Shown here: piece after piece, positions 2,999-53,800 of the stretch
Numbering within the stretch: the stretch's first letter is position 1
How the letters are laid out: each line of letters begins with the position of its first letter
DNA from: Amyelois transitella
Lineage: Eukaryota; Arthropoda; Insecta; Lepidoptera; Pyralidae
DNA length: 64,000 nt
NCBI RefSeq assembly: GCF_032362555.1
Contig: NC_083507.1
Coordinates: 7,381,001-7,445,000 of the forward strand
Direction of reading: 5' to 3'
Translations under genes and position numbers: made by a program
Notes under the pieces: model-generated
Told to the model about the DNA's origin: nothing
Database searches by the model: none
What the model saw: only the letters and a program-made list of their open reading frames with translations

Positions 2999-4372
2999 TC
3001 AATCACTTATGTCCATAATATCACTATCACTGGAACTTGATTCTTCACTTTCACAACAGCCATCATCAGAATCATCAGAATCGTCTTGCACATTAATAAT
3101 AAAATCAACAACTTCATCTAGGACTCCATCATGTTTGCAATATTCGTCTTCGATTTTAATCACGTGTTTAACACAATTCTCCCATTTCTCTTTGGGATAT
3201 TCAGCAAATAATCTCTCTAATATTTCTTTTTTCTGGTCCAAATTAGAGTCGATACTTTTTTGTGCTAATTGTCCTTTGATATCACCCCAGACCAACTCAA
3301 TTGGGTTCAGGTCTGGGTGATATGGAGGCAAACGCAATACTTCGTGTCCGTTTCTTTTCAATACCTCGTCAATTTTGTAAATATCTTCTGTGAAATTACT
3401 TTTAATTAATTTATATAAGTCATCCTTTCTAAGTTTTTCATCAAAAGGCACGTTATGTCGTCGTAGCCATTCTTGCATAGTTGGCTTGGTAGAAGCCATA
3501 GTTGGCTTTTTCTCTTCTCGAACCGAATGATAAGCTGCGTTGTCCATTACTATGACAGAATTTTGCGGTATATTAGGCATGAGCTTTTCATTTATCCATT
3601 TACTGAAATTTGCGAAATTCATAGAATCGTGATAATCACCTGTTTTACATTTGGATTTGAATATCACAAGGGCTCCGTCTACAAATCCAATTTGACCTCC
3701 ACAATGTACGATGATCAAACGGTCCCCTTTACCAATATGAGATAGAACGCCAAGTTCATCCTTTGATTGCCAACATTTTGAAACGTTATGAGACGCGTTT
3801 ACATAAGTTTCGTCAAGGTATAAAATATGTCTTCCTTCTCTACGATATTTTTTAATAGTATTTAGGTATTTCCACCTCCACGATGTGATATTTGGCTGTT
3901 CGATAAGGAGTTTCCTTTTAGATCCGCATTTCTTAAATTTAAAACCTAGATCATGTAATAATAGCCTTAAATATTCCCTGCCGCAGTGTAATATATTCTC
4001 TTCTCTAAGTACAGCGTTCAAAGTTTTCAGAGTAGGTATTTTTTTGAAAATTGTGTAAAACTGAGTGACTTTTCTTCTTACCACTCCTTTTGTGAAATCG
4101 TCTATTTCCACTCTTTTTCTACGAACCTGTTTTGGTTTTCTCGGTGATTTAAATCTCTCGTTGTCATTTAATGCTTTCCCTTGTTGTACAATTCTAGATA
4201 CAGTCTTTTCTGATAGTCCAGTAACTTCTGCTACAGTTTTATTTAAAGGTATATCTTGTTTATATTCATCAGAATTTGGGTCGAGTTTCTTTTTTCTAAA
4301 ATATTCATATACGTTAAACGCCATTTGTTTGCACTGACTATTAATTCTATGTCCGAAAATATTTCGACTCAT
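2999..4372 (-). CDS. IS630/Tc1-superfamily DDE transposase, 457 aa, intact
   Basis: Catalyses cut-and-paste movement of the flanking element. Near residues 48-65 the sequence VTGLSEKTVSRIVQQG looks like a helix-turn-helix, followed by a basic stretch (KPKQVRRKRVEID). The catalytic core shows YLDETYVNASH (first Asp, near residue 195), VIVMDNAAYH (second Asp, near 277) and PPYHPDLNPIELVWGDIK (Glu, near 359). By my count 81 residues separate the second Asp from the Glu. This is far more than the 34-39 of common mariner/Tc1 groups and close to the DD82E ('Sailor') group as I recall it. The C-terminus is a run of Asp and Ser. There is no internal stop or frameshift, and the frame starts with ATG about 107 bp inside the right inverted repeat. 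The name of the DD82E group is from memory; the motifs are seen. Confidence 0.88.
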   Translation of the reverse strand: MSRNIFGHRINSQCKQMAFNVYEYFRKKKLDPNSDEYKQDIPLNKTVAEVTGLSEKTVSRIVQQGKALNDNERFKSPRKPKQVRRKRVEIDDFTKGVVRRKVTQFYTIFKKIPTLKTLNAVLREENILHCGREYLRLLLHDLGFKFKKCGSKRKLLIEQPNITSWRWKYLNTIKKYRREGRHILYLDETYVNASHNVSKCWQSKDELGVLSHIGKGDRLIIVHCGGQIGFVDGALVIFKSKCKTGDYHDSMNFANFSKWINEKLMPNIPQNSVIVMDNAAYHSVREEKKPTMASTKPTMQEWLRRHNVPFDEKLRKDDLYKLIKSNFTEDIYKIDEVLKRNGHEVLRLPPYHPDLNPIELVWGDIKGQLAQKSIDSNLDQKKEILERLFAEYPKEKWENCVKHVIKIEDEYCKHDGVLDEVVDFIINVQDDSDDSDDGCCESEESSSSDSDIMDISD

Positions 4373-4478
4373 CTTGAGAATGTAATCTCATGTATAATTT
4401 TCACAAGGCGTCCGCAACTGTCAACACGTGTGATCGCTAACCGCGTAGCGAGCGAACTGAGTTTTTACAAGAATGCGC

Positions 4479-5638: not shown

Positions 5639-13293
<7,655 letters not shown>

Positions 13294-35866: not shown

Positions 35867-38800
35867 TCAAGCGGCGGAGGCTTGGAGATATCTTCGCAAT
35901 TCCTCTTGTGTGTCGAAGATCATGACCGGGAACGGCGAGCCGGGCACGTGGCGGCCTGCCCATCGGACCTCCACGCGGTAGTCGCCGGGTTCGGTGGGCG
36001 AAAACTGGTGACAACAGATGCAATTGAGTTACAGTTACTTTATTATTTATTTTAAAACGTCGTATGCAATTACGAGTGTGGTAGGTAACGGCGGATAGCG
36101 GCAATCGTGTCGGCGGTCGAAGGGTTACCGCAGAATAAAAGGTGTGATGCGCCAGTTGATGATGACTTACAAAAAGTATACTTCTTTCAGCATTCAGTAT
36201 TCAGTCCACTTAATGAAGCAATCATGCCCGCCTACTTAGGTAAAACTTGATGCGGGTCTGGTCAAAATCTGGCCTTAAAGCGTTTGATTTGAGTGCAACA
36301 CGCAAGGATGAGAGATAATGACCTAAAAGGGCAGTATTTTTAATTGTTCTTATTACGTAGCAATTTATATTATAAAAATAAAATTTATCATCAAATGGAA
36401 TTATATCAGACACCTGTATCATAGAATTAAACTACCACCCAAATCGATAGGAGCATATTAATTTTATTGTTTCGTACAATTAGATAACAATCATGATGAA
36501 TGGGGAACAATTGGGGAGATATCGTAAATTATTTTCATATCTGATTTCAAGCATTGAAGTTGTTTTCAATATTTATTTGATAAGAATAATCTTTTAATCA
36601 GGTGCGATGGTGACTGGTACGTACTAATTTGAGTGTTCATAAGGTATTTAAATATAATTTTATTAATATTACCAGACTACTCTTTGGTTGGATGACTGTT
36701 GTTAATTTGGTGAAAAAAAAATTTTACAAAATGTCCACATAATTTTCGATAGTAAAAAAATAATATTTATATTCATTTTGTACTTTAATAGTAAAGTATT
36801 TACATATAGTCCGTCTTTATCCTTTGCGGGGTTGACAGAGCCAACTGTCTCGAAAAGACTAAAAGCCACGTTCAACTGCATGACAAAAATTAAATTAAAT
36901 AGTGACAGGTTGCTAACCTACAAAAGGAATCTTAAGCTTGGAAGCTTATCCCTTAGTAGCCTTATACGAGATCCATGGGAACGATATGAAGTGGTTCTTT
37001 TCGCTGTAAACTCAACACAAACGGTGCGGCAACGGTTTTGTTTGCCCTATCTTCAGTGGGAGGCTTGCGCCGGATATACCCCTGTGCATTATCAATTGAG
37101 GGCGTTCCGACCTTTACGTAATGACGTCATCATTTCCTTCCATAGTATGGTCCTTGAACTACTGGTTCTCCCTCTGGATTACAACTCGGCACCCTTTGGT
37201 CCTCGCACTCGCACTGTAAACTGACCTGCCTCAGCGCCTCTAGTGTTGCGTAGGAATCGTGACTAAAATTTTTCTTTGAAAGACTCCTATACAATGTGAT
37301 GTTAGCATTTACCTTGCAAAGTATAGTCCTGTCCTTCTGGTTTTCCCTTTGCATCTCAACGCGGAAGGCGCCCTTCGGTCCGCGCACTCGCACTGTCAAC
37401 TGTCCTGCGCCGGCGCCCTTCGTGTCGCATAAGAACCGTGACTGGAATGTCGCCAACACGCCTGGCTCCACACCCGGTCCGTACACACGAACCTGAGATA
37501 CGATATATATTAATGTTATTAACTACACATATAATCACATTTCGATGCTCGGTGACTTCTGGCATACAAAATAGGAAGGAGAGGAAGAGTTCTTGAAAGT
37601 GGCCACGTCAAAGCACTTACAGTTAGTTTACCATAAGTACAAAATGACATTGAATAAGCTTTTGTCTTCCCTATCTCACACTAGAATCAACTAGAAAACG
37701 AAAAGAAAGAGATAGAGGGTACAAATCTAGGTCATCTCACTCTTTAGTAACTGGCTCATTAAAAGTAAATTAAAAAAAATCGTAACAGCTTTCAAAAATC
37801 GAACTTACCTTAGAAGGGTCAGGCGCGCCGGCCACTTTGAGTATGAACGGCGATCCTGGCACATGTTCTCCAGCAAACTGTATGCTGAGCACGTGTCGGC
37901 CCGCCTCCGCAGGCTTTACGTTGAGTGTGAATGTGCCGTCACCGTGCTCGTATAGTTCGCAGTACGCGACCTGTAGGTGATTAAGTGTTGTAAGTATAAT
38001 TACCTACACAATTATGTGACTAGTTGTAAGGAAGTCTGCTTTGAAGTTAAATATTGGCAGTCAATGCCACTTTCTCGTATTTTAGCGCATATCCAATTTC
38101 ATTCTCAGTTATAAATAAAAAGCATATTTGCTGCTGTTTAAATTGATTTTTAGTTGTTTGTACTTTCCCAACATGCGTTACGTAGAAAGTGTGCAACACC
38201 ATTTGAAAAAACGTTATAGGTAATATCAACCAATCAACGACTTACATCATTGTTTTCTTGTTATTTTTTTCCTTAACTATGTTGATTACCTGATACGGAT
38301 TCAACTACGTCTAAAAAAAATACAACTACGTTACCTTGTTAGGTCCGGTGCAGTGCGCCGTAAGCTCGCCGGGTCCGGCGCGTCGGGTGTCGATCCACGA
38401 ACGGATCTCATGCCCGACGATGCCGGACACGAGCCCGGTGCCGGAGCAGACCACGCGGGAAGCGTCGCCGCTCTCGCCGCCCGGCGACACGTTCACTGTT
38501 AGAGGGCAGCCTGAGGAGAAGAAAGTCAAATTAGTGATTGATTGATCATTTTGTCTTTCATATAACTAAAAATTATTTGAGTGACTTGCCTCCTTATTCG
38601 CGGACGTTGCACAGATATATTTCTTATCAACTCTTACATTGTGATAAGTGTAGGTACTATGGTAACGTTTAAACAGTGTTAGACAAATAGTCAAGAATGC
38701 AGATACTTAAGTCGTTGCAAATTATTCTCACAAATCCTATGCAATAATTTAAATGACTGACAGACATTGGACATTATTGATTCGGCTCGAAGGACCCATA

Positions 38801-41800
38801 GACAAGAGTATATAGAGCCAAGGCAGCTTGAATGAAACTCAGACTCCCGGAACGAAGACATTTACTCAAATCTCAATCTCAATTATATGCTTGTACAGAA
38901 ATCAAAACCATATCGCGTTTCAATATGGGATAACGTCATCTATGATTATAAAAGTAAACTAAACATATGTTTAAACCAAAATTAGACAAGGAATGGTAGC
39001 TTAAAACTGTTTAAGCATAAAATGTTTTAATGGAAATAGTACGTAAAAAATCCAAATCAGGGTGATAATAATTGAAACGTAAAATATTAATGTGCGAAAC
39101 TCACCCTTGACGAGTCGACCAGCCCACATGACCCTAAGCTGGTGGTCGCCAGGTCTTCGCGGGGTATACGTTGCCCGCCACAGCCCCGGCCCGGCGGCCG
39201 CTAACGCCACCGGGACCGTCTCCCCGTCCGGGGTAGACAGCGACGCTTCGGGAGCGCCGGGACCTGCTGCGCTTCCGTCTGGAAATTTAATTTATAATTA
39301 ACACTAAAGTTTAACTTTTACGTGTTTCAGGAGATCTAAGTGGGTGAAGTAAGTTGATTTGAATAAAAACAAAACAAAAATCAAACAGATGAAATGTTAC
39401 ACAGTTAAGCAAGGAAGGATGGTGTGTAACAATACAAATAAGATAGGTGTGATCAATAGCTAAATACAAACGGAGAAGACAGCCGGTATATGAGCACAGA
39501 CGAGGGCCAATCCACGTCTAGCTAAAGCCACGCTGGTCCGCTGATTCTAGCGCAGCCAATACCGCTTTGCAAGGAGCTCCCCACTCTTAGTTACTATTTC
39601 TAGCATAGAAAGACTGTTTGTGTAAGAGGCACAGTGTGAGCTGATCCGCGTTCAGCTAATATCAGCAGTTCCTGGCGCGGCTAGTAACGCTCTACGGGGA
39701 GCTCCCCCTACCTGACGCCATTGTATATCCTCCACATAGTCACAAGTGAGGGCTTAAATAACACTACAGATGGCTTACCGATGGTGAAGACAGCCGGTGT
39801 ATGAGGTGCTGCATGAGCCAATCCACGTCCAGCCAATGCCACTCGGTCAGCAGTTCCTGGTGCAGCTAGTAACGCTCTGCGAGGAGCTCCCCCCACCAGG
39901 GCGCCGTTATACGTTAGTTCTAGTTCATGCTCGCCAGCGCCGGCGCCCTCGCCAGATAGGGTAACTACTGCGCGGCCGGATACAGTTTCCACACCTGGAA
40001 AAATATAATTAATAATGGCATGTTAATACGGTCTACTGGAAGCATTTTCTTTTAAGTCTAATTATCCTGTACTAGGTTCAGTTTTCTTCAGTGGCCGTAG
40101 AATGGACGACAAAAACATAAATTGGTAATTTCGCTAGCAACACTTTACGAGTCGTAAAGGACACTTACGTTGATGGCGTCCAGCCAACAGACACTCCAGC
40201 GATCCTGGTCCGGCGTTGCTGGTGTCCAGTACTAATTTGGAGGGAGCTCGTACACGCCCCGCGTTGTCTGCGCCCCAACCGCCCACTGGCATTATAGCTG
40301 AGGTATCTATAACCTGCCAAATTAAAAAAAGATATATATATTAAGAAAGAATAGCTAGCCAGCTACTGCGTGAGTACGTGTACATTGCGGAGTGTTTTTG
40401 TTGTAATTACATAAATAGCAAATACCTACGTTTGACAGAATTTTTATCTCGTAAGTCAGTACCCGTTTTTTCCCACCCACTGTCTTTAACTTTTATGACT
40501 AACACCCTGTGTCCACTTAGAACCAACTTGTCCATGGTCCACCAAGATCTAAATCTTGGTTATAAGTAGACACAGGGTGTTAGATAAGAATGAAAGCGCT
40601 AAAAGAGCAAAGAGAATGATGATGGAGAATAAATACAGAGGGAACAAAAACCAACATAATACAGGGACAGGGGAAAGTTAAGCACGCTTTATACCTACGT
40701 ATTTTGTAAACTTACCTTCACGGAGAATGGACTTCCAGGAAGAGGTCCGCTGCTGGTGAATATCCTGACTTCATACAAGCCCACGACTAAAGGAATATAG
40801 GCGCATAGCCACTCCCGAGGCGCACCTGCGACTACTCTACATTCTAATAGACCGGAATCTGTTGAGTCTTCTTTGCCGTCGGTTAGCCTTTCAACCTGGG
40901 GAAAAATATTGAAACTAAAATTTTATCAAATGTAGAATGAAGCTTTAAGCTTTTTTATATTAAGTTTAGTATGTATTGTTTACATGGTGATGACTGTACT
41001 AATGGTGGATCTGAATATGTCTGTTTTTATAATCACAATGAATTAACAGTTGCATTTTAAGCAGAAGCCGTTTTAGTATATTCGTTTCATAAATAAAATT
41101 AGGAAAAGATGTTCAGCTCGTCTTCTTTCTCTAGCGTTAATCCCGGCTACATTCTCACCTTTCTGAAGAAGACCCGTGGTACGTCTTTTGACTATAATCC
41201 TCGATTGGGTTATTCAGGTTTTTACACAAAGACATTCAGCTCGTCTGCGGGGTATATACCTGGACAGTGGGCGTGGCATCTTCATCGCAATGTATGGTGA
41301 AAGCGGCCTCTTTACCCACGTGCGCATGGACCAAACCCGTGCCAGCACATCGCGCCACGCTACTACTGCGAGTGTTCAGAACGCCTAGCGAAACTGGACT
41401 GCCTGCTACTGGGGCACCTGAGAAGAAAATACTAAATTGAAGGGATTCCTTGTGGTATATAAATTTTTCTTCGGTTTTCTTTGCGTATATAACTTCGAAA
41501 TGTATAACTCAATCAAAAGAAAGGCTAACAAACTTGGGATTTTTTATTTAAGGTGATGAACCTATCGCCTAGAATAAAATTGATAGCCAGCACCATGTCA
41601 CTCTTTGAATCTCAAATCCATATCAAGCCCACAGCTGACGGTTACCTATCAATCTTTTCGAGACTGTTGGCTCTGTATGTCCACCGTAAGGTAAGTGTCG
41701 GGACGAGCAGCGAGGAAGACGAGGGGTTGCATCAGTGCCTAGCCAGGCACTTGGAAAATCGATCCTTTAGGAGCCGCGCGGGTCCATAAAATATTTTACC

Positions 41801-44800
41801 TACTTATATTTTCGTTTCGAACCAACACATTTTATAGATAACAGTCCACTTTTAATTAGAGAATCTTCCGGATACCTGGATAGGAAAAGTAGGCTGAGTC
41901 AAGACATAAGTGGTTTCTTGGCAAGGTAATATTTATAAAGTGGTACGCTATCTCTAACTACCCACATTATTTAAAATACCGTTTTACAAGCGGTACAACG
42001 GTAACTTCGCGTTTGAATTTGATTAGGAGCAACAAAGATTCATATTATTTCACTCACCTCCGTAAGTAATATAAATGCGGTAATGCGCAGGCAAGGCAGG
42101 CCGCATGCGCACGCGATAAGAGCGGCCATCTTCTCTGATATCGACGGGTACTCGAACTCTCCTCTCTCCACCTCCCCCTCCATCGCCCATAGCCTCACAA
42201 ACCACTTCTAATTCTCCCACACCAGCGTCTTTTGTTTCCACTGAAAGATAAAATTGGTCTAAACACTACTAAAAACTATAGGTACCAATTTCATAATAGG
42301 TTATATACTAATATAAAATAGCGATTGTTACTAAAAATATTAGTAAAAAAAACTTTTTAAAGTCAATAGGAAGTGCACAAAAGATATTTAAGTTTAACTA
42401 AAGAGTTTTTGCAAGGATTGAAGTAACCTTATTTACGTACTGTATGTTGGATCCAAAAAGATTTATTTGTAAGGCACGTTACTAACCAACTCACATAACA
42501 CATGTTATTTGTGAACCTTACTTGATTTCCAGGTTATTACTTCTTTCTTTATATATTTGAAACAAAATCTTACCATTAAAGTTAATCGGCGTATTGGTGA
42601 TGATATTGCCAGTGGGTAACCCTGACAGAATCACTCTATTAGGGTCGAATGACTCGCATGTGAACGGACTTCCTGATACTGGTTTGGAGAGGTGTAGTAC
42701 TTCTGTTGAGTAAAAAAAAAAATATTTGTAAATAAGAATGGCAACTTTAAAAGCAAGATGATAAGAAATTTTTCTAATTAGATACGAGCGTTGGTAGTCG
42801 AATCGGTAAGGTGCCTGGTTAAAATGCGTGATGCGCAGAAGGGCACAGGTTCAAATGCCACCTCGGCCATATACCGATGACTATTTTCAAAGTTATGTAT
42901 TATACATTAGTTTGAATACTAATCGATGCGCTTATGGTGAAGAAAAACATAGTGAGTAAACCTGCACATGGATCAAATACGGATAAGGTTCCCCTCTAAG
43001 GGTTGCGTGGTTCAGATGGGAGTCGCTTCGTGTAAAAAACTGATTCACCTAATCGAGGATCCATGGTCCAAGCCATACCCCAGGCTCCTCTTTAGAAAGG
43101 TGAGGATGCAACTGGGAATAAAGCCAGGAGTAAAAAGGAATTCTTGTTCATCTCTTTTTCTTCTCTTTTTTATTTAAATTTATTTTAGAAATATCGTTGA
43201 AGCGGTATAAACTTATTTGCACATATTTTCATTAACTAAGCTGTGGACGACTGTTTTCTCTATAGGAACATGTGAGAACAAATGATTTACCTATAGTGCT
43301 TTGGCCCACTTCAGTAATGGTATACTCCGCTTGTAACAGGCCAGATTTGGTTTGATAGCAACGCACGGGCAATGCCCTGGAACCAGGACCGGAGACCACT
43401 ACGTCGAATTCTCTCGCGGGCCGCCCAAGTGTGTCGATACTGAACGAGGCTACACGACCGACTTGAGCCTGGTAGAGGCCGAGGCCTGATGCCGAGACCT
43501 GTAGGAAAAGATCACAAATAAGTTTGCCTGCTCACAAGTGTTGTTGTAGAATTAACAACCTGATCACTACGAGCAATTGTTGATTAAATTCAACTTGGAA
43601 AAAATATTTTCACCACTAAGCTTCAAAAGGGGAACATGACTTAACTTTTCCGTGCCCGCCTTTTTATACTAATTGGCCCAATTCGATAGAGATGATGATT
43701 TTACATAGAGTACTTTCAAGTATATAAGTGCTATAGTAAAGGAAAAACGGTCATTCGCTTCAGTCGTCTCCTGTGGTGAGCTAGCAGTTCGTCGACAAGG
43801 CGAGGCGGCGTGCCACACCAGCTCCTGGCGCCCTGCCTCACAGAGTGAGACACCCTAGCATCGCACTGTAGACACTCGCCTCTTGTCCATGGTGAGCTGG
43901 CAGCACGTCCACCAGCAGCGGCTGCCTGTGCAGCGGCGTGGCGCTCCACAGCAAGGCGAGGCGGTGCGGCGCGGCGCGGGCGGGGTGCCACACCAGCTCC
44001 TGGCGCCCCCCGCCGCGTCTGCGCACGGAGTGGGGCACGCTAGCGCCGCCGCACCACACGCGGGCGGATAACCGCCCAGCTCCGGCACCGGTCGTGCTCA
44101 CTAAAAAGAAAAAAAAACATTCGAATGCAGTTGTTCTTAATTTAAAGGTATAACTCGGTTCAGAAGTAATTGCAGTAAGTAAAAAAAATATAGTTTCTAT
44201 GTAAATATACGCAGAGTCAAATCTTGTCAAATGAGTAATAGTGACATGTACACTTAGTCTGTAAAACGTTATTTGAAATAAAGAAATAAAAATTTTTGCT
44301 CAAGTTCGCTTTACAATACATACCTGTCTCCCATTGGAGTAGGCGTATACATACATACATAAAGTCACGTCCATATCAGACAAAGCCAACAGTCTCGAAA
44401 GCAGATAAGAGACTGAAAGGCCACGTTTAGGTGTATGGCTTCATGATTGAATTGAGATTCAAATTTTATATATATATACGGGACAAATTGAGTGGTTCTA
44501 ATCTAAAGTGCCGGAAACGACTAATACTTTGCCTGCAAAATCCTCAATAATGTTGTCCTTACCTGTCAAAACCGCAGGTTTATGTGCCACTGCCTCTCCA
44601 ATAGACAGAACTTTCACGGCTGAAGCGTCCAGGGCCTCTACTTCAGCGACTGGTCCTCTGGAACTGCGCACCAAATATCTGCCCACTCTAGTAGCCGGGA
44701 AGGTCAATAGACCGGTGTCCTCTAAATGTGCTTCGGGTATGCGTACTCCAGTTGGTGATATGACTTCTACGTCGGATAGTGTCTCGTCCAACTCCACTGT

Positions 44801-47800
44801 GGCGACGCCCCCTGGAAAAGTAAAACGATATTTCGAAATTAAAGATGAAAGTAACTCTATTTTCACATGGACATTATCGATAACGATCTCTTTAAATATT
44901 AATAAATATTATGTCAATATTATTTACCTATTTGTACATAAGTGTGAGGCTCGCTGACTCTGCAGACGAAGGGGCTTCCTGGCACCGCTTGCTCGTTGAA
45001 CGTGACAGACACTCGGTGTGGCTCGCGTGATACCGGCACAAATGTCACGTCGTATAGACCACGGGCTACGGCTACCACCTGAGAACATAGATTTAGTTAC
45101 TTCATCTAATGTTAATGCTCTGACGGTGGCAAATGCTCGAATCCAATGCATAATAGGAAAACTTCTTAGGAAGAACGCAACCAGCATAAATGACAAGAGA
45201 ATGATATGAATGCGTACTCAATTTCAGTAGCGTCCGCACAAGGAGAAAGTGTGGACGCTGTTCTTAACAACAACGCTGTACTTTTTGTCTACCCTATTGT
45301 ACTACAGTTATTAAAAGAACCATTATAAGCTCACCTCCGCTTTAACCGTGGTAGACGGAGTGGACACTACTAGTTCCAGGGTGCCTTCACCGGCACCAGC
45401 AGCATCTACGCTGAACGTCACTGGCTTTCCAACTTCGACACCACGCTCTTCGTCCACACCATCGTCCAAACTGAGGCCTTCTAGTGTGCCTTCTAATTCT
45501 GAAATGGAAATATTTGATGTTAGAACCCTGAGTATAAGGATAAAACTTATTCCAACATAACAGAGGCCTCTTCCGCCACGTTTGTTAGTCGTCTTTAAAT
45601 TTCCAAATAATCAACTTTTGAGAATGTGCAGATTGATGAAGAAAATACGTTGACTGTGGTGGCCGCCAATTCAAGAGTTTACATAAAAATATGTTTCATA
45701 CCTCTCGGCCCAAGTATGGTGACTCTCACTCATACCATATCATACACGTTGCAAGTGAACGGCGAGCCGGGCACATGGCGACCGGCACAAGTCACTCGTA
45801 TGTCGTGACGGCTGACCATTTCCATATTATATGGGAAGAAATTTGTGTAATATACCTCCAGGCCCAAGTCCAGTAACTCTGACTCGTCGCACATCATACA
45901 CGTTGCAAGTGAACGGAGAGCCTGGCACGTGGCGACCGGCACAAATCACTTGCACGCTGTGACGTCCGACTGCTTCGGGGGTGTAAGTGGCTGTATATCT
46001 TCCTTCCCCAGTGGACGTCACACGAGTACGAACGTTGCTGCCGCCAGGTCCAGAGACGTATACTGTAGGTTCGCCAGCTAGAAGAAAAAGGCACTTTGAT
46101 AAATACTAATATATAACAGATAATCTTTAATAAAACACTTGAGAACAAATTAGACCTGTAAAGAGCACTTTAAACAAATTCTACCGTTATTTGCGCTCAG
46201 GAAACGCTAATAAATGTAATGTTTCATGTCCACAAGTGACACCTTGTATTCAATATTGAGAAACAACAAAACATACATTTATTAACGAGATTAAAACCGT
46301 TACAAATTGAAATAGATAAACACCTAATGTATTCTTAATATTTAATTTTATAACAAATGGCATTGAGATCACAATGTTCGAAATAGGGTAATAGAGACAA
46401 AAAGTGTAAGAATTTATTTTTAAATTCCAAGTAGCAAATAAACTAGCTATACTTTTGATCAGAAGCAATAAAACGTACAAATAGAAACAATGCGTCGACG
46501 CCGCGAACACTTGATGCAATGCATGCACATCGGCAGACTATACATCGAACTACTATTCTTAGATGTCAACAAAATACTAATAGCAAGAGATTTATAAACA
46601 CACGTCTCTGTTATTATATACACTAATGATCGTTTATAAACAATTATGATTATAGGAGCGTTAGATAGGTAGGATAAAATTTTATGAATCCAGCATGTTG
46701 AGTTTACAGATACATTTAATTATCAAGGTTAGTAAATTAAATTACTTTAAATGTCGTAGACCAGAACACTGTTTTACTCCTTGTGAAAAGATTTATCAGA
46801 CTTAGTGGTGACCGCTAACCAGAAATAAGTTAGTTTATACACATATAAACCTTTATTTAATATTCTAATCTTAAAAATATCCAAGAATAACTTGATTGAT
46901 TTTAAAATCTGCGCGGGAATAGAAAACGCAAGTCGTTCGATCGACAAAATTACAAATGTCATGTTATGTGGCAGGCACACTCACTATGAAATCCAGTGAG
47001 GTGTATCTCGGCGGGTTCAGCCCTAGACGCCGAGCTCAGCCCCGGGCCGTGAGCACGGGCGTCGCCCGAGTGCGGGGGCGCCGATACCGGGCACACGAAC
47101 GGCGACCCGGGGACCGTGTGCCCGTTGAAGCGAACTGACAGCATGTGTGGGGCCGGCTCCACTGGCTTGAAGTTTACCTGCAACGATTTTGATTGAAGAA
47201 CGATGGCTATTAAAAAAAAATTTAGGTACCTACGTAGATCGAAAATATATACTTTTTGTTTATGGCCAGTTTCCACTTTGAAGTTTGTTCTCTCAGTCTA
47301 TTAGAAAATTGTGAGCAGACTCAAATAAACATCTTATTTATCATAGGGAGATAGAACAAACCTTGAATCTTGCATTTCCTTCACTTTGTACGTAGTTTGG
47401 CACGTTTCTCCCATTGACTGCGACTATAATTTCTAGATTGCCAGCACCTAAAAATAAAATCAAATTATAAATAAATGTTCTTCATGTATGACACGGCATT
47501 TGATATAAACTAGTTACGTTTTTCACCTGTCATGGCAAAGAGAACGGATATGCGCTACTGCATACTATTAGCCAATTACAATTCTGTTCAAGTTATTTCT
47601 TTTTACCTTAGATAACTTTTTTATTAACAAACTGTAATTATTTCCTTTGCACTGCGGGCAAACCCGAATGTGTCAGCTAGATTAATAAATTTAACTACGT
47701 ACCCGCATGAGAAGCATTGATAGTGAAGGACACTGGCCGCCCCACCACACCGGGAGATATGTCGGTGACGGCCACGCGACCAGCACTGTACGCTTTCACC

Positions 47801-50800
47801 AGGAACGGGCTGCCTTCCACATGCCCGCCCATGGCGCCGGCTCGAACCTGTTACATGCAAACATGACGAGATTTAAAAAAGAAGGGATAAGGATTTTTTT
47901 CGGTAATTCTTATAAGCTTGTAATACAGTCGCACTGAGTTTGTATTTTAATAGTTCACAAAAAAATTGTTTTTTTAAACTATAACACCATTGTTTACTTT
48001 GGTGCCTAGCCTACCTACACTTGCCGCAACTTGAAAGACGATGCAGCCTGTGACAAAGTCGTAAAACCATTAAAGTGACAAGTCACGTCTAAAGTAGTAA
48101 CGATTTGTCAAACTAACCTCTATGCTATGATCTCCGACATCGACCGGCACGAAAGAGATGGTATATCGCTTGCTAGCTTCATTTTCTCCCACTGTTTCTT
48201 CAGCTGATACCTGCAAAAATATAACAGAAACATTGAATTGATCTTTAACACTCTTGCGAGTATAACTTCATGTCAATGCTATTGCGTTTTCCCCTGCCTG
48301 GGGAAAAACCCGGTGTTTGCCTGTGACCACCAACCTGGATTTGGTTAATCGGGTTTTTGCTGAACAGTAGCACTCCTACCCCCATAACAGGTGGATTGTA
48401 ACTAACTCATGTTTAATCATGGTCAACTTTGCAAAGTATTTTACATCTACAACTAAATTGGCCCTAGAAACTCTACGTGTGTGGACGAGGACCAGAAGTA
48501 AGTTAAAAGTGTAAAGGTCCTTTTAACTCATGAGAACTTTGTCGAGGGACTAGCTTAATACTGGGCTGGGACCAACACATGGCAAACAAATTTACGTACT
48601 AAACATACCTGTACAGGTACTGGTCTTCGAGCTGGACCTAGCACTTCCACGTGAGGGGACGTGGGCGAGTCTACGCTGAAGGTGTAAGGATCACCCACGG
48701 ACACTTTGTCTGGAGACTCGCTTGATCCTGCGCCGATTACCCGCGCTGGGGCCGACACATGGCAAACGAAGGGGCTGCCTGTAATATTGTTTATCCTATT
48801 TATGGAATATGTTAATATATGTATATTAACATAGTTTATCCCAAGCAGGTAGGCGTTACCTGTTAGACTTTTTGTAAATCAGTGTAATATCCAAGTTTCT
48901 TACCTGGCACATGGTCTCCATTGAACCGTAGCTCTACCGTGTGCGGTCGCGGGTCTCTGGGAGTGAAGCTGATGGCGTATGTGTGAGCTCCTTGCGCAGC
49001 CGCTGCTGTGGGCACTCGCCCACCATTCACGGTCACCTCTAGATTACCAGGCCCCGCGGCCATCGTCTCAACTGGGTGAAAAATAAGTTTTTAAATTAAT
49101 ATATTATACGCACGATAATTTGTATAAGTATTTTAAATAGGTGGTTGAAGAATAAGAAGGAAATAATTGCTTTAAGCACTCATTTTTCTTTTTCTCAAAA
49201 AAAACATTATGGTATATTTGCCGTGTGGTTCCCGGCACCAATACAAAAAAGAATAGGACCACTCCATTTCTTTCCCATGGATGTCGTAAAAGGCGACTAA
49301 GGGATAGGCTTACAAACTTGGGATTCTTCTTTTAGGGGGTGTGCTAGCAACCTTTCACTATTTGAATCTCAATTCTAATATTAAGCCATATAGCTGAACG
49401 TGGCCTTTCAGTCTTTTCAAGACTGTTGGCTCTGTCTACCCCGTAAGGGATATAGACGTGATGATATGTATGTATATTTACCTAGAAAAGTTACGGGCTT
49501 GCCAACTGTTCCATGTGCCACGTCTTTGACTCTGATGGCGGTTACATCATAAACCTATGAAACAAAAAATTATTTCATTTTCACAATAAGACAAAATACT
49601 TTAGTGCCACTTTCATAACCTTATTTTAAAACAATATTGAAATACCTTCAGATGGAACGGGCTAGCTGGAATGGGGACTGAGTCGACAAGCACGTTGAGG
49701 CGATGCTCGCCGACTGCCCGCGGCACAAACTCTGCGCGGAAGACTCCCGCGCCCGCCGACGACACCGCCGCCGGCACGGACGCGCCGTTGGGACCTGCCA
49801 CCGCGCAACGCTCAGCTCAACGCTACGCCCTAACCCCCACTATCTAACTAGCCTCCTGACCTCCTAATGTGATTGACCAATTCTATTTTTTAATTTTTCT
49901 CCCATTTTTTTTTTGTCTTTTCTGGCAGTAATATAATTACTGAACTTTAAAAATGATGTTAGAAGTTAAGGCGAAGCGGATGAGCGAGCTTATTGATACA
50001 TGAATGTTATATGGAGTCATGTTATTTTTAAAACCCATAGTAGATTTATCCATACGCATTGAATTTATCATCTCGAATCTGAACCTTAAAATTAAATCTT
50101 ATGGCTAAAAGGTAAATACAGTATCTAAAAGCAAAGTTAGGAGATTAGTGATATCAAATTGTAAGCACGTTAAGAGGTGGATTGTTAGTACCGCTAAGCA
50201 GATAGATGGTTAAAAACGATTATTTGGATGCTTATATCTCTAAATTTATCTTGTGACACTTTCTGTTCTACATTTACTACTGGCACATTCATAAGTGCTT
50301 TTTCATTTCAATTTGTGATCAAATCAAATATTTTCTAATATCTATGCCCTCGCATATCACCCTGGAAAGAGACAAATACAGTTGTTGTACTAAGAAACAC
50401 TGCTAGCTTGCTACTAAAAGCACAGTTACATATCCACCTCCTAAAGATTCATATATACTAAACAAATTATATTTAGGTAGGCGCCTATTGAATAATATAG
50501 GTATTATTAATTAATACAGGGTGTATCGCGCATATCCTTTATCCATACATTTGCTATTTGGTGCTCTATTTTATCTGTATCTCTGTAATCGAAAATCATA
50601 CATTTGAGCAGGAGCTTGTCCACATAGTTAAAGATGAGTTCCGCCCATGGCTCCTGTGTATATACATACACATATAGGGAAGGCTAAGACTATTTCTTTC
50701 CACTTGCCCCCATTCCTGCAAAATTATTTTACTTCACACACATTAATTACTTTAAGTTCGTCGGTTTCGGGCGGGTATTCTTGTTCTGACCTTTCGCCAG

Positions 50801-53800
50801 AACGTCTCAGATTTGATAAAGATACCTTTGTTTCTCATGTATATTTTTAGAATTTTTTGGTCTTTCTTGGATAGTTTCTTTCTTTACAAAATAGAGCTAT
50901 GGTTATTCAAATTGAGACCCCCTCGATGACGACAGGCCATGGATATTTCCTGAATTTCTTTTTAATTTTTTTAATATATTGCAAGCACTTACCCTCAACA
51001 TTGACTTCGATCTGGTCCAGCGTGGCTGTGGGGTGGTGTAGCGTGAGTGCGGCAGGTTGGTGTAGCGGCGCGGGGCCCGGCACTGTGACGCGGGCGCCGC
51101 TGCCGGTCCCTTCGGATACCTCGATGACGAGGGGGCAGCCTGGGACGCGCATCTGTTATATATATATATTACATCAAGTTATGTATTTATTCATAATATA
51201 GTACATACATTAAGTACCAACACACTTTTATATTTATGAAAAAACATGAATGACTGTAAGATATTTATATACTTAGTAAATTCAATGCATTATTCCTTAC
51301 AAATTTAGCAACTCACACTAACAAGACAAAACAGGACAGGCAGAATGAATTCACAAGAATAAGTCTGCACTAAACAGATCACATTGAGTCAGTTGTTTAC
51401 ACAGCTGATACCTAGTGTACTAATAATCCAGTTTGCTCTGATAACAGATGAAAATAGTGACCATAATTTTTATTCATTTTTAAATAAAAGAAGATAATTC
51501 AATTTGCACATATGCAGAGGTCATTCTCTCACCTCTTAAAAGTTTTTGAATGTCTTTTGGTGCAATGGTCGTATTTTCTATTTATTCTTGCTTTTTATAT
51601 TTCAATCAACCAATTATTATTAATTTCTTTAATAAAATGAAAATAATAATTTTTTGTAATGTAGGAGTCTTTTTAAAATAAACCTAAAAAAGTAAATTAT
51701 ACACAAACTTTCATTACCTTATTGAATGATACATTGACAACATGATCACAAGCATCTGTTGGGGTGAAAGATACTGTGAAACGGGCATTTCCCTGTAAAA
51801 AAAGAACAACTGTAATAATTCTGCTGTCCTTTGTGAAATCCAATTATGATACTATGATAATTGGAATTTATACTATTTGGAATTAAAAATAAAAGCTACA
51901 CGATTATCTTTACCTGTGGATGAACTTGGGTAGGTATATTGAGCCCTCTTGCGGCAACTGTGATCTCCAGGTTCCCTTCTCCAGCCTGAGCTGCATCAAC
52001 AGCCAACTGCACAGGCACACCAACCCGGGCTGACGATCCTCCAGTCACACTGACTAGCTTCCCATCATAGGCTTTACAAATGAATGGGGTTTCCTAGGGA
52101 CATTGTAAGAGATTATTTCTGGAGCAGCAGAAAAATGCATGAAAGTTGAATCAAGTTGTGAATGAAGTATAATTGGGGTAGGCCTACATAAATGTAACTT
52201 GATCAAATTGGAGATGTTTTGGCAAAAGGTCAGGTCAACCACCCAAAACCAAAAACCTATCATGAAGAGAGTTAAGATTATGGATGAAGTGAAAGAAGTA
52301 TGCAGGGATTGTGGCAAGTGGAAAGATGTAGTCTCTGTCTATGCCTCGGGCAGAGGCATGTTTTTATGTAAGTATATTTTTAAAAATGAAAGAATCTTTT
52401 GAGAATATGGAATAAACTTAAAGAGGAGAAAACTATGACAATGATGTTGGATAAACTTTCCCGTTACTTAACACATTGCTTGTAGTTTGCATGACCGTAC
52501 TTTGCTTTAGCTCCATATAATACATAAACTGAATTTGTAATCTACTTACCGGTACCGGCTGGTTGTTGTAATGGGCCGTGAGTGTATGAGGCCCAACGTG
52601 TCTTGGGACAAAGCTGGCTACTAGTCCCGTTATGATATCACCAGTTAATCTCACTGGAACTTCTCCCCGCGGTCCTCGGACTGTCACTGTAAGCTCACCG
52701 CCGCCAGAGCCTTCCACACGCACTGAACACGACGCAGTCTCATCCACCGGTATTAATTCTGAAGAAGAATATGAATACCTACGTTAAGTTTATTGCATTG
52801 TTTCAAACTGTTTCTAGTTTAGTTTTACTCTTTGTTTGTAAATAAGAAAAGTGTTGGCCACTGTCTCAGATAAAATGCGCTAAATAGGCATAATGTAATA
52901 TACATTACATAAAATCATGCCGCTTTCCCGGAGGGGTAGGCGGAGACTACACTTTTCCACTTGCCGCAATCTCTGCATACTTCTGTTGTATCATTCACAT
53001 TCATAAATGTTTACCTTTTGTAAACCTAAAGACAATGTCTTTTTTTTAAATGGGTATCATTTAAACTATCGCCAAGTTAATTAGTTTTGCATTTCTAAAA
53101 TAATAAAGTTAAATGGTAAATTTGTCACCAAAATACAAAAATTCATCTTAAATCATCAAGTATCAAATATATCTTTTAAGTAGGTCTATTCTGAAAAATC
53201 TATTGCTGTTTCGCTTTTTATTATGACGTGATTCAGGTTAGTGATAGAAGAAAATACGCGATATGCTCGACATAATGCCGGAAAACGCTAAGTTGGCAAC
53301 ACTAAATAAAAACTGAAACAGTCAGAGTCAATGTCAAAGTCAAGTGTCAAGTAGAGCAAATAGTAATACCGAACTATCGACAGTTTGAATGTCGATAGCA
53401 GACCCAAGAAATCACCCTATGATATCGATAAGCCTATCGACAGTAATGCTGTCAAACCAGAACTCAAAAGCAGTAGATTTATTAACCTTTTAACCGCGCG
53501 AGTCGCATATATGCGACAAATATTGCCGTGCCCCTACCGCCCGTGTCGTATTTCTGCGACAGAGAATATCCATGATTTTTTCGTTCTATTATCGTCCTAT
53601 TAACTTCGTGGTATAACTAAAACTATTATTGAATAGAGCTATTTATTACAACAATTACTTAAAATTATGTTTCATAGCTCTAAGCATTGAAAAAACTTAA
53701 ACAAAAATAAGTAATTGGCAGCTCGGACTTTTCTTCGGTGTCTATCGCGCGTGTCGCATAAATATGACCATAGGGATGGGATACAATGCAATGCGCATTT

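Follow-up and report, generated by a model that had tools for sequence, protein, structure and literature searches.

The 64-kb window analysed here (Amyelois transitella, NC_083507.1, positions 7,381,001 to 7,445,000) is a piece of contig C3 of a genome of 327 Mb in 33 contigs. Its minus strand carries a filamin gene, within which downstream of an exon means toward lower coordinates. The profile PF00630 (Filamin repeat) matched four of nine filamin pieces scanned, three of them above the cut-off, and a genome search with this profile returned many more matches spread along the window filamin gene. Gene models were obtained with a gene-finder built for this work from splice sites and codon usage, which yielded phase-consistent exon chains. 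From these chains 34 filamin exons were curated, each of which was aligned by the Smith-Waterman (SW) method to its flanking intron sequence, at most 600 bp per side. Five of the 34 (those starting at coordinates 37313, 39779, 43880, 45856, and 48609) have strong matches to their own 3' parts in the downstream flank, with scores of 191–380, as had been proposed by an earlier inspection of the letters alone, hereafter the sequence-only reading. All remaining filamin flank comparisons score at most 103, the maximum belonging to the upstream flank of exon 42574-42702. No strong upstream copy is present in the flanks of the 34 curated exons (at most 600 bp of intron). The source exons and their copies, or "exon shadows", are as follows.

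37313..37492, minus strand: filamin exon, source of a copy (gene model and SW alignment)
37111..37271, minus strand: decayed tandem copy derived from 37286-37450 (3' part of the exon, donor, and 27 bp of intron), 73.5% identical (alignment)
39779..39994, minus strand: filamin exon, source of two copies (gene model and SW alignment)
39610..39725, minus strand: copy 1, of exon part 39787-39911, 73% identical (alignment)
39456..39586, minus strand: copy 2, of 39770-39896, crossing the donor, 72.5% identical (alignment)
43880..44100, minus strand: filamin exon with a GC donor (GAG/GCGAGT), source of a copy (gene model)
43775..43864, minus strand: copy of exon part 43955-44049, 69% identical, with internal deletions and the donor unaligned (alignment)
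45856..46077, minus strand: filamin exon, source of a copy, PF00630 E-value 1.8e-15 (profile scan and gene model)
45666..45822, minus strand: copy derived from 45816-45976 (3' part of the exon, donor, and intron start), 75.5% identical, donor GT retained, one in-frame stop (alignment)
48609..48778, minus strand: filamin exon, source of a copy (gene model and SW alignment)
48401..48590, minus strand: copy of 48571-48770, 58% identical overall, with a core (48459-48590) at 63% (alignment)
50921..50939, minus strand: sixth candidate, matching exon 50993-51152 over 19 bp and not significant (SW alignment)

The last of these, a short copy suggested for a sixth exon, was rejected, as its 19 bp match (84% identity, score 68) is equalled or surpassed by 3 of 66 control flanks. 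It should also be noted that exon 43880-44100 apparently uses a GC donor, not GT (GAG/GCGAGTGT at window positions 43874-43880).

Of the five exons, all but 43880 have an alignment that crosses the donor and continues into the intron. At exons 37313, 45856, and 48609 the aligned source ends within 14 bp of the copy start or inside the copy; thus the source reaches nearly to, or into, the copy, and a tandem duplication fits all three. At 39779 and 43880, decay has left part of the unit unalignable, and the units given here (186 and 185 bp) are partly reconstructed. Counted from the upstream boundary of the respective copy, the units are 37272-37450 (179 bp; exon of 180 bp), 39726-39911 (186 bp; exon of 216 bp, with the additional copy at 39456-39586), 43865-44049 (185 bp; exon of 221 bp), 45823-45976 (154 bp; exon of 222 bp), and 48591-48770 (180 bp; exon of 170 bp), the last of which begins within the exon and extends into the intron. 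These lengths bear on the possibility that the shadows are remnants of full tandem exon duplications, i.e., failed mutually exclusive exons that have lost their 5' part and acceptor. Retention of the 3' part, and often of the donor, is what such remnants would display; however, four of the five units fall short of the exon in length, and the start of the fifth inside its exon is shared by the six young arrays printed for the spectrin-family genes described below, which makes this origin very unlikely. Mutually exclusive exons as such were also considered and rejected, because the unit lacks an acceptor and the filamin copies contain stops and frameshifts.

The filamin copies are non-coding. 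Their identity to the source is 58–76% for alignments that include intron and at most 79% for the exon part. Five of the six copies contain a frame-breaking indel (length not a multiple of three), the remaining copy contains an in-frame stop, and 85 of 158 substitutions fall at codon positions 1 and 2. Counted from the substitution lists, there are 86 changes from G/C to A/T and 40 in the reverse direction, which is the direction expected for GC-rich exon sequence decaying within an AT-rich intron. The broken reading frames, the substitutions at codon positions 1 and 2, and the lack of an acceptor inside the duplicated filamin units render it highly improbable that the copies are functional alternative exon segments or splicing regulators maintained by selection, although donors are kept in most printed copies of the young arrays and one such array, of a 111 bp unit, lies in a 767-codon open frame. 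An assembly or haplotype artefact, which the sequence-only reading had named as a possible refutation, is scarcely credible: the filamin copies are 21–42% divergent from their sources and carry indels, well above haplotype differences, whereas the 100% identical 111 bp array is one that could be mis-sized. The proposal that exon 3' end, donor, and intron start were duplicated in tandem and then decayed is thus borne out by alignments that cross the donor and by the broken state of the copies. Copies with coding potential are easily mistaken for exons, and our own gene-finder called some of them as such.

For comparison beyond the window, 286 kb were added from other exon-rich genes of the same genome, which together with the window makes 350 kb, 11 gene regions, and 227 exons. 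The additions comprise the remainder of the window filamin gene, a second filamin (contig C24), five ion-channel regions (found through PF00520), and three spectrin-family genes (found through PF00435), which we take to be alpha, beta, and beta-heavy spectrin. A fixed-flank count recorded the best match in each 700 bp flank and excluded 19 rows overlapping predicted exons. A symmetric junction search took 60 bp from the exon and 30 bp from the intron at every junction, with mismatched controls (n=1180), and a coverage count registered local direct repeats at offsets of 60–700 bp, low-complexity repeats having been dropped. For the junction, coverage, per-intron, fixed-flank, and intron-length counts, the exon list of the window consisted of the 34 curated filamin exons and 17 predicted exons; C3:1513816-1514021 was set by hand. 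Score thresholds (110 for the junction search and fixed-flank count, 120 for a comparison of GC content) were chosen after scores and controls had been seen. In the GC comparison, predicted exons within known arrays were taken out by hand and the exon end of C14:5186443-5186647 was hand-set at the donor. The lengths of 17 units and of the added intron sequence were entered by hand; filamin 37313 was entered as 176, where the copy end gives 179, a correction that would shift the median unit from 176 to 177.

Exon copies lie overwhelmingly on the donor side. The junction search marks 17 of 227 donors, 1 of 227 acceptors, and none of the 1180 controls; one of the 17 donors (C3:1490996) matches through intron sequence alone, its 58-bp array being of intron origin, and filamin exon 48609, the copy of which is old, scores 90 and stays under the threshold. 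In the fixed-flank count, copies off other predicted exons number 21 downstream and 1 upstream. The 19 excluded matches, which are expected because protein domains repeat, divide into 9 downstream and 10 upstream, and the method thus has no built-in direction. Three of the 21 downstream matches (C3:3481095, C24:6682045, and C30:3198064) are weak, with identities of 0.60–0.62, and are given no weight; the same applies to the sole upstream match (C3:1517068), the copy of which (1517823-1517937) lies beside a predicted exon and is perhaps a missed homologous exon. Counted by intron (n=210), 18 carry marks solely at the donor, 1 solely at the acceptor, and 4 at both ends, and events confined to intron sequence show the same order (5, 1, and 3 introns, respectively). 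The polarity tracks the gene strand: in the C14 gene, which is on the plus strand, the copies are at the high-coordinate side. The downstream asymmetry claimed for filamin therefore extends to other genes of the sample.

The 17 events have a median unit of about 176 bp, with a median exon part of 115 bp and a median intron part of 48 bp. Shadowed introns (n=17) minus their copies have a median length of 350 bp, compared with 602 bp for the others (p 6e-4), a difference that the gene and missed exons may confound; at present they are of average length. The events are unevenly distributed. Six of the 11 gene regions (the upstream part of filamin, the C24 filamin, and four ion-channel regions, with 68 of the 210 introns) contain no marked intron, and in the other regions 22 of 142 introns are donor-marked. 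For this reason, the copies are gene- or region-specific, and the suggestion that GC-rich exons merely reveal what happens everywhere is not supported. Exons with copies are richer in GC (0.632, n=18) than those without (0.572, n=196; p 6e-4), in a comparison that missed two real cases, i.e., filamin 45856 and the exon of the 111 bp array.

Local duplications take up 7.5% of the first 150 bp past a donor and 6.2% of the intron interior, but 1.3% of the last 150 bp ahead of an acceptor; unassigned sequence is covered to 0.5%. Duplications are clearly depleted at acceptors. By our own sums, three long arrays supply about two-fifths of the interior coverage, and without them the interior falls to about 3.7% and the donor side to about 6%. 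Attraction of duplications to donors is possible, because the donor side exceeds the interior once the three longest arrays are set aside. These figures are where a different explanation must be weighed, namely that the duplication process itself is directional, owing, for example, to transcription, R-loops, or the steep drop in GC at the donor, with no need for a selective filter. The higher GC of copy-bearing exons, the clustering of matches in particular genes, and the donor-side excess just given are consistent with such a mutational polarity. With all arrays included, however, the donor side is near the interior and only the acceptor side is low, a pattern resembling removal; moreover, acceptors are avoided by intron-only duplications too, and one array spanning an acceptor does occur. 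In our opinion, mutational polarity as the source of the bias is unlikely.

Young counterparts of the filamin shadows are found in the spectrin-family genes. The array at C3:1511797-1513896 consists of a 111 bp unit (81 bp of exon end and 30 bp of intron) repeated 18.9 times at 100% identity, and that at C14:5186544-5187977 of a 128 bp unit repeated 11.2 times at 98% identity; further arrays have units of 139, 141, 157, and 192 bp in 2.6, 3.6, 2.8, and 2.2 copies, respectively. All six exon-anchored arrays printed for these genes span the exon-intron border including the splice site, and all start inside the exon. The source donor sequence is kept in most of the printed copies (the 111 bp array was printed in part). 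The 111 bp unit is a multiple of three, within the 767-codon open frame, and splicing from a later donor would lengthen the protein by 37 residues for every copy included. A 155 bp array (C24:6690189-6690884) that follows a calcium-channel-like exon includes no more than 18 bp of that exon, and its intron part presumably resembles a dispersed moth repeat; it was therefore kept outside the 17 events. Intronic minisatellites are likewise tandem arrays, their units being tens to hundreds of bases long. The moth arrays differ from them in that the founder unit is the end of the adjacent exon together with its donor.

We interpret exon shadows as local tandem duplications across exon 3' end, donor, and intron start, the donor bias of which most likely comes from a filter imposed by splicing, and we assign this reading a probability of about 0.63. 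Local tandem duplication produces units of mostly 110–190 bp (a few larger) comprising the exon 3' end, the donor, and the first intron bases. Some duplications grow to arrays of as many as about 19 copies, and old single copies fade into shadows of the kind seen in filamin. Where a donor is duplicated, the original upstream donor would still be used, the exon would remain intact, and the copies would be spliced out with the intron. Where an acceptor is duplicated, the outermost upstream acceptor, provided with a full branch point and pyrimidine tract, of which later copies may lack the branch point, would tend to be chosen, intron sequence would enter the mRNA, and the allele would be purged. 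The underlying DNA process is probably replication or recombination instability in GC-rich sequence. The sequence-only reading likewise favored a selective filter, which remains the likeliest reason for the asymmetry. Its wording, according to which a duplicate without acceptor is skipped harmlessly, is incomplete, because an acceptor-spanning copy that lacks a donor would seem equally harmless; a rule is needed for which of the duplicate splice sites is used. The tandem arrangement, the decay of copies, the polarity, and the existence of young copies that retain their donors are seen directly in the sequence, whereas we infer both this choice of splice site and the purging by selection. Such a rule has a precedent in human minigenes with 365-nt flanking introns, in which only the upstream member of two identical strong donors was used; pairs of human 3' splice sites likewise lean toward the upstream member (PMC9225289). 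A broader version of the splicing-filter reading holds that duplications throughout the lineage hit introns and exon borders equally and that the survivors are a fossil record of splice competition, with the 5'-most donor and the 5'-most acceptor both winning; we regard it as tentative and somewhat doubtful.

Several points weigh against the splicing filter. The use of the first donor in the moth copies is a prediction. In the human study, about 60% of all alternative-donor events, prior to any equalising of site strength, favor the downstream donor, and acceptors lean less to the upstream side when splicing proceeds by exon definition (PMC9225289). A prediction that donor copies would be tolerated only in introns longer than 250 bp failed: 7 of 17 shadowed introns were below 250 bp before duplication, compared with 18 of 197 unshadowed introns, and at such lengths the human data predict use of the downstream donor (PMC9225289). 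The donor-side excess that is left without the three longest arrays makes some attraction to donors conceivable. The genes were chosen non-randomly, for high exon number, the exons are predictions of our own gene-finder, and a single genome was sampled. Among birds, the showcase of the avian paper, stuttering in intron 18 of PHF8, is described as derived from exon 19, i.e., from the acceptor side (PMC12954441). Finally, an acceptor-spanning array (C30:3187830-3188357) is present in the moth itself, at exon C30:3187689-3187850, which also possesses a downstream copy; the claim that copies never lie upstream of their exon therefore stands within filamin (0 of 34 strong) and fails beyond it. The unit of this array is about 134 bp, of which about 21–37 bp are exon and the rest (roughly 100–113 bp) intron. 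Each copy may thus constitute a complete acceptor with its upstream signals, which would be tolerable under the filter model, although this is one case. The gene-finder called the copies of this array as 24-bp mini-exons with acceptor-like and donor-like sites.

The sequence-only reading knew of no name for such copies, but the phenomenon has been described in birds as exon stuttering, or sequence stuttering, on avian dot chromosomes, including those of the chicken (Hron et al. 2026; PMC12954441). Avian exon stuttering involves 1–44 copies with an exon part of 20–187 bp (median 36 bp), occurs in GC-rich genes, has its source at the exon border including the splice site, and is accompanied by stuttering of purely intronic origin; large differences in intron length among individuals are a central trait of the avian case. 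Its authors propose replication stress or meiotic conversion, and they place stuttering in birds, gerbil genes being an exceptional case (PMC12954441). The moth copies are the same kind of event. They are picked out by the avian screening criterion, the copied region spans the border and the splice site (in four of five filamin exons and in the six printed spectrin arrays), purely intronic local repeats occur alongside in the hot genes of the moth, and the affected coding sequence is GC-rich in both (PMC12954441). The moth copies differ in lying on contigs of 4.7–13 Mb and not on dot chromosomes, which is a feature of the host outside the definition of the screen, and in having a larger exon part (median 115 bp in 17 events, against 36 bp). 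They are also strongly donor-sided, whereas the avian authors write of "donor or acceptor", and the words "upstream" and "downstream" are both absent from their main text, as far as it is accessible (PMC12954441). What is new relative to the accessible avian account is therefore the insect host, the ordinary chromosomes, the larger exon parts, and the strong donor polarity.

Two further systems are related more distantly. Tandem and mutually exclusive exons, in particular the "intronic match" class of Exonize, share the presence of an exon duplicate, sometimes degenerate, in the adjacent intron; there, whole or nearly whole exons are duplicated, whereas the moth unit begins within the exon and lacks an acceptor (PMC12343006). 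Intron gain in Drosophila by tandem duplication of coding sequence with a proto-splice site shares an exonic tandem duplication with a donor-like site, but there the coding sequence acquires an intron at a new place, while the moth copies lengthen an existing intron (PMC2891723).

Beyond filamin, the window contains a helicase gene, which we take to be of the DEAD-box type, with short or weak candidate copies.

7174..7340, minus strand: predicted exon of the helicase gene, source of a short copy, with Helicase_C in a neighbouring exon (prediction and profile scan)
7131..7165, minus strand: copy of exon part 7250-7284, 83% identical over 35 bp, beginning 8 bp past the donor (alignment)
10011..10092, minus strand: weaker candidate for a copy, drawn from the 3' end and donor region of exon 10360-10601 in the same gene, 66% identical, junction score 120 against a control maximum of 107 (junction search)

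On the minus strand at 3002-4387, the window also contains a 462-codon open frame (stop to stop) that appears transposase-like by eye only. Within 53480-53780, similar short GC-rich motifs (CGCG...GTCGCATA-like) near 53490-53560 and 53740-53770, likewise noted by eye, are perhaps a small dispersed repeat.

These results carry a form of gene instability, described for birds (with gerbil genes mentioned) in the single paper found on it, to insects, where it affects 7–9% of the sampled exons (17 to 21 of 227). The arrays set identical donors, up to about 19 in succession, in competition within a single transcript and so amount to natural experiments. They also serve as a warning for annotation, since exon-end copies are prone to false exon calls. 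The polarity is quantitative, cheap to test across genomes, and relevant to models of splice-site choice. If it is true generally, counts of donor-side and acceptor-side copies would reveal the splicing rule of a genome without RNA data.

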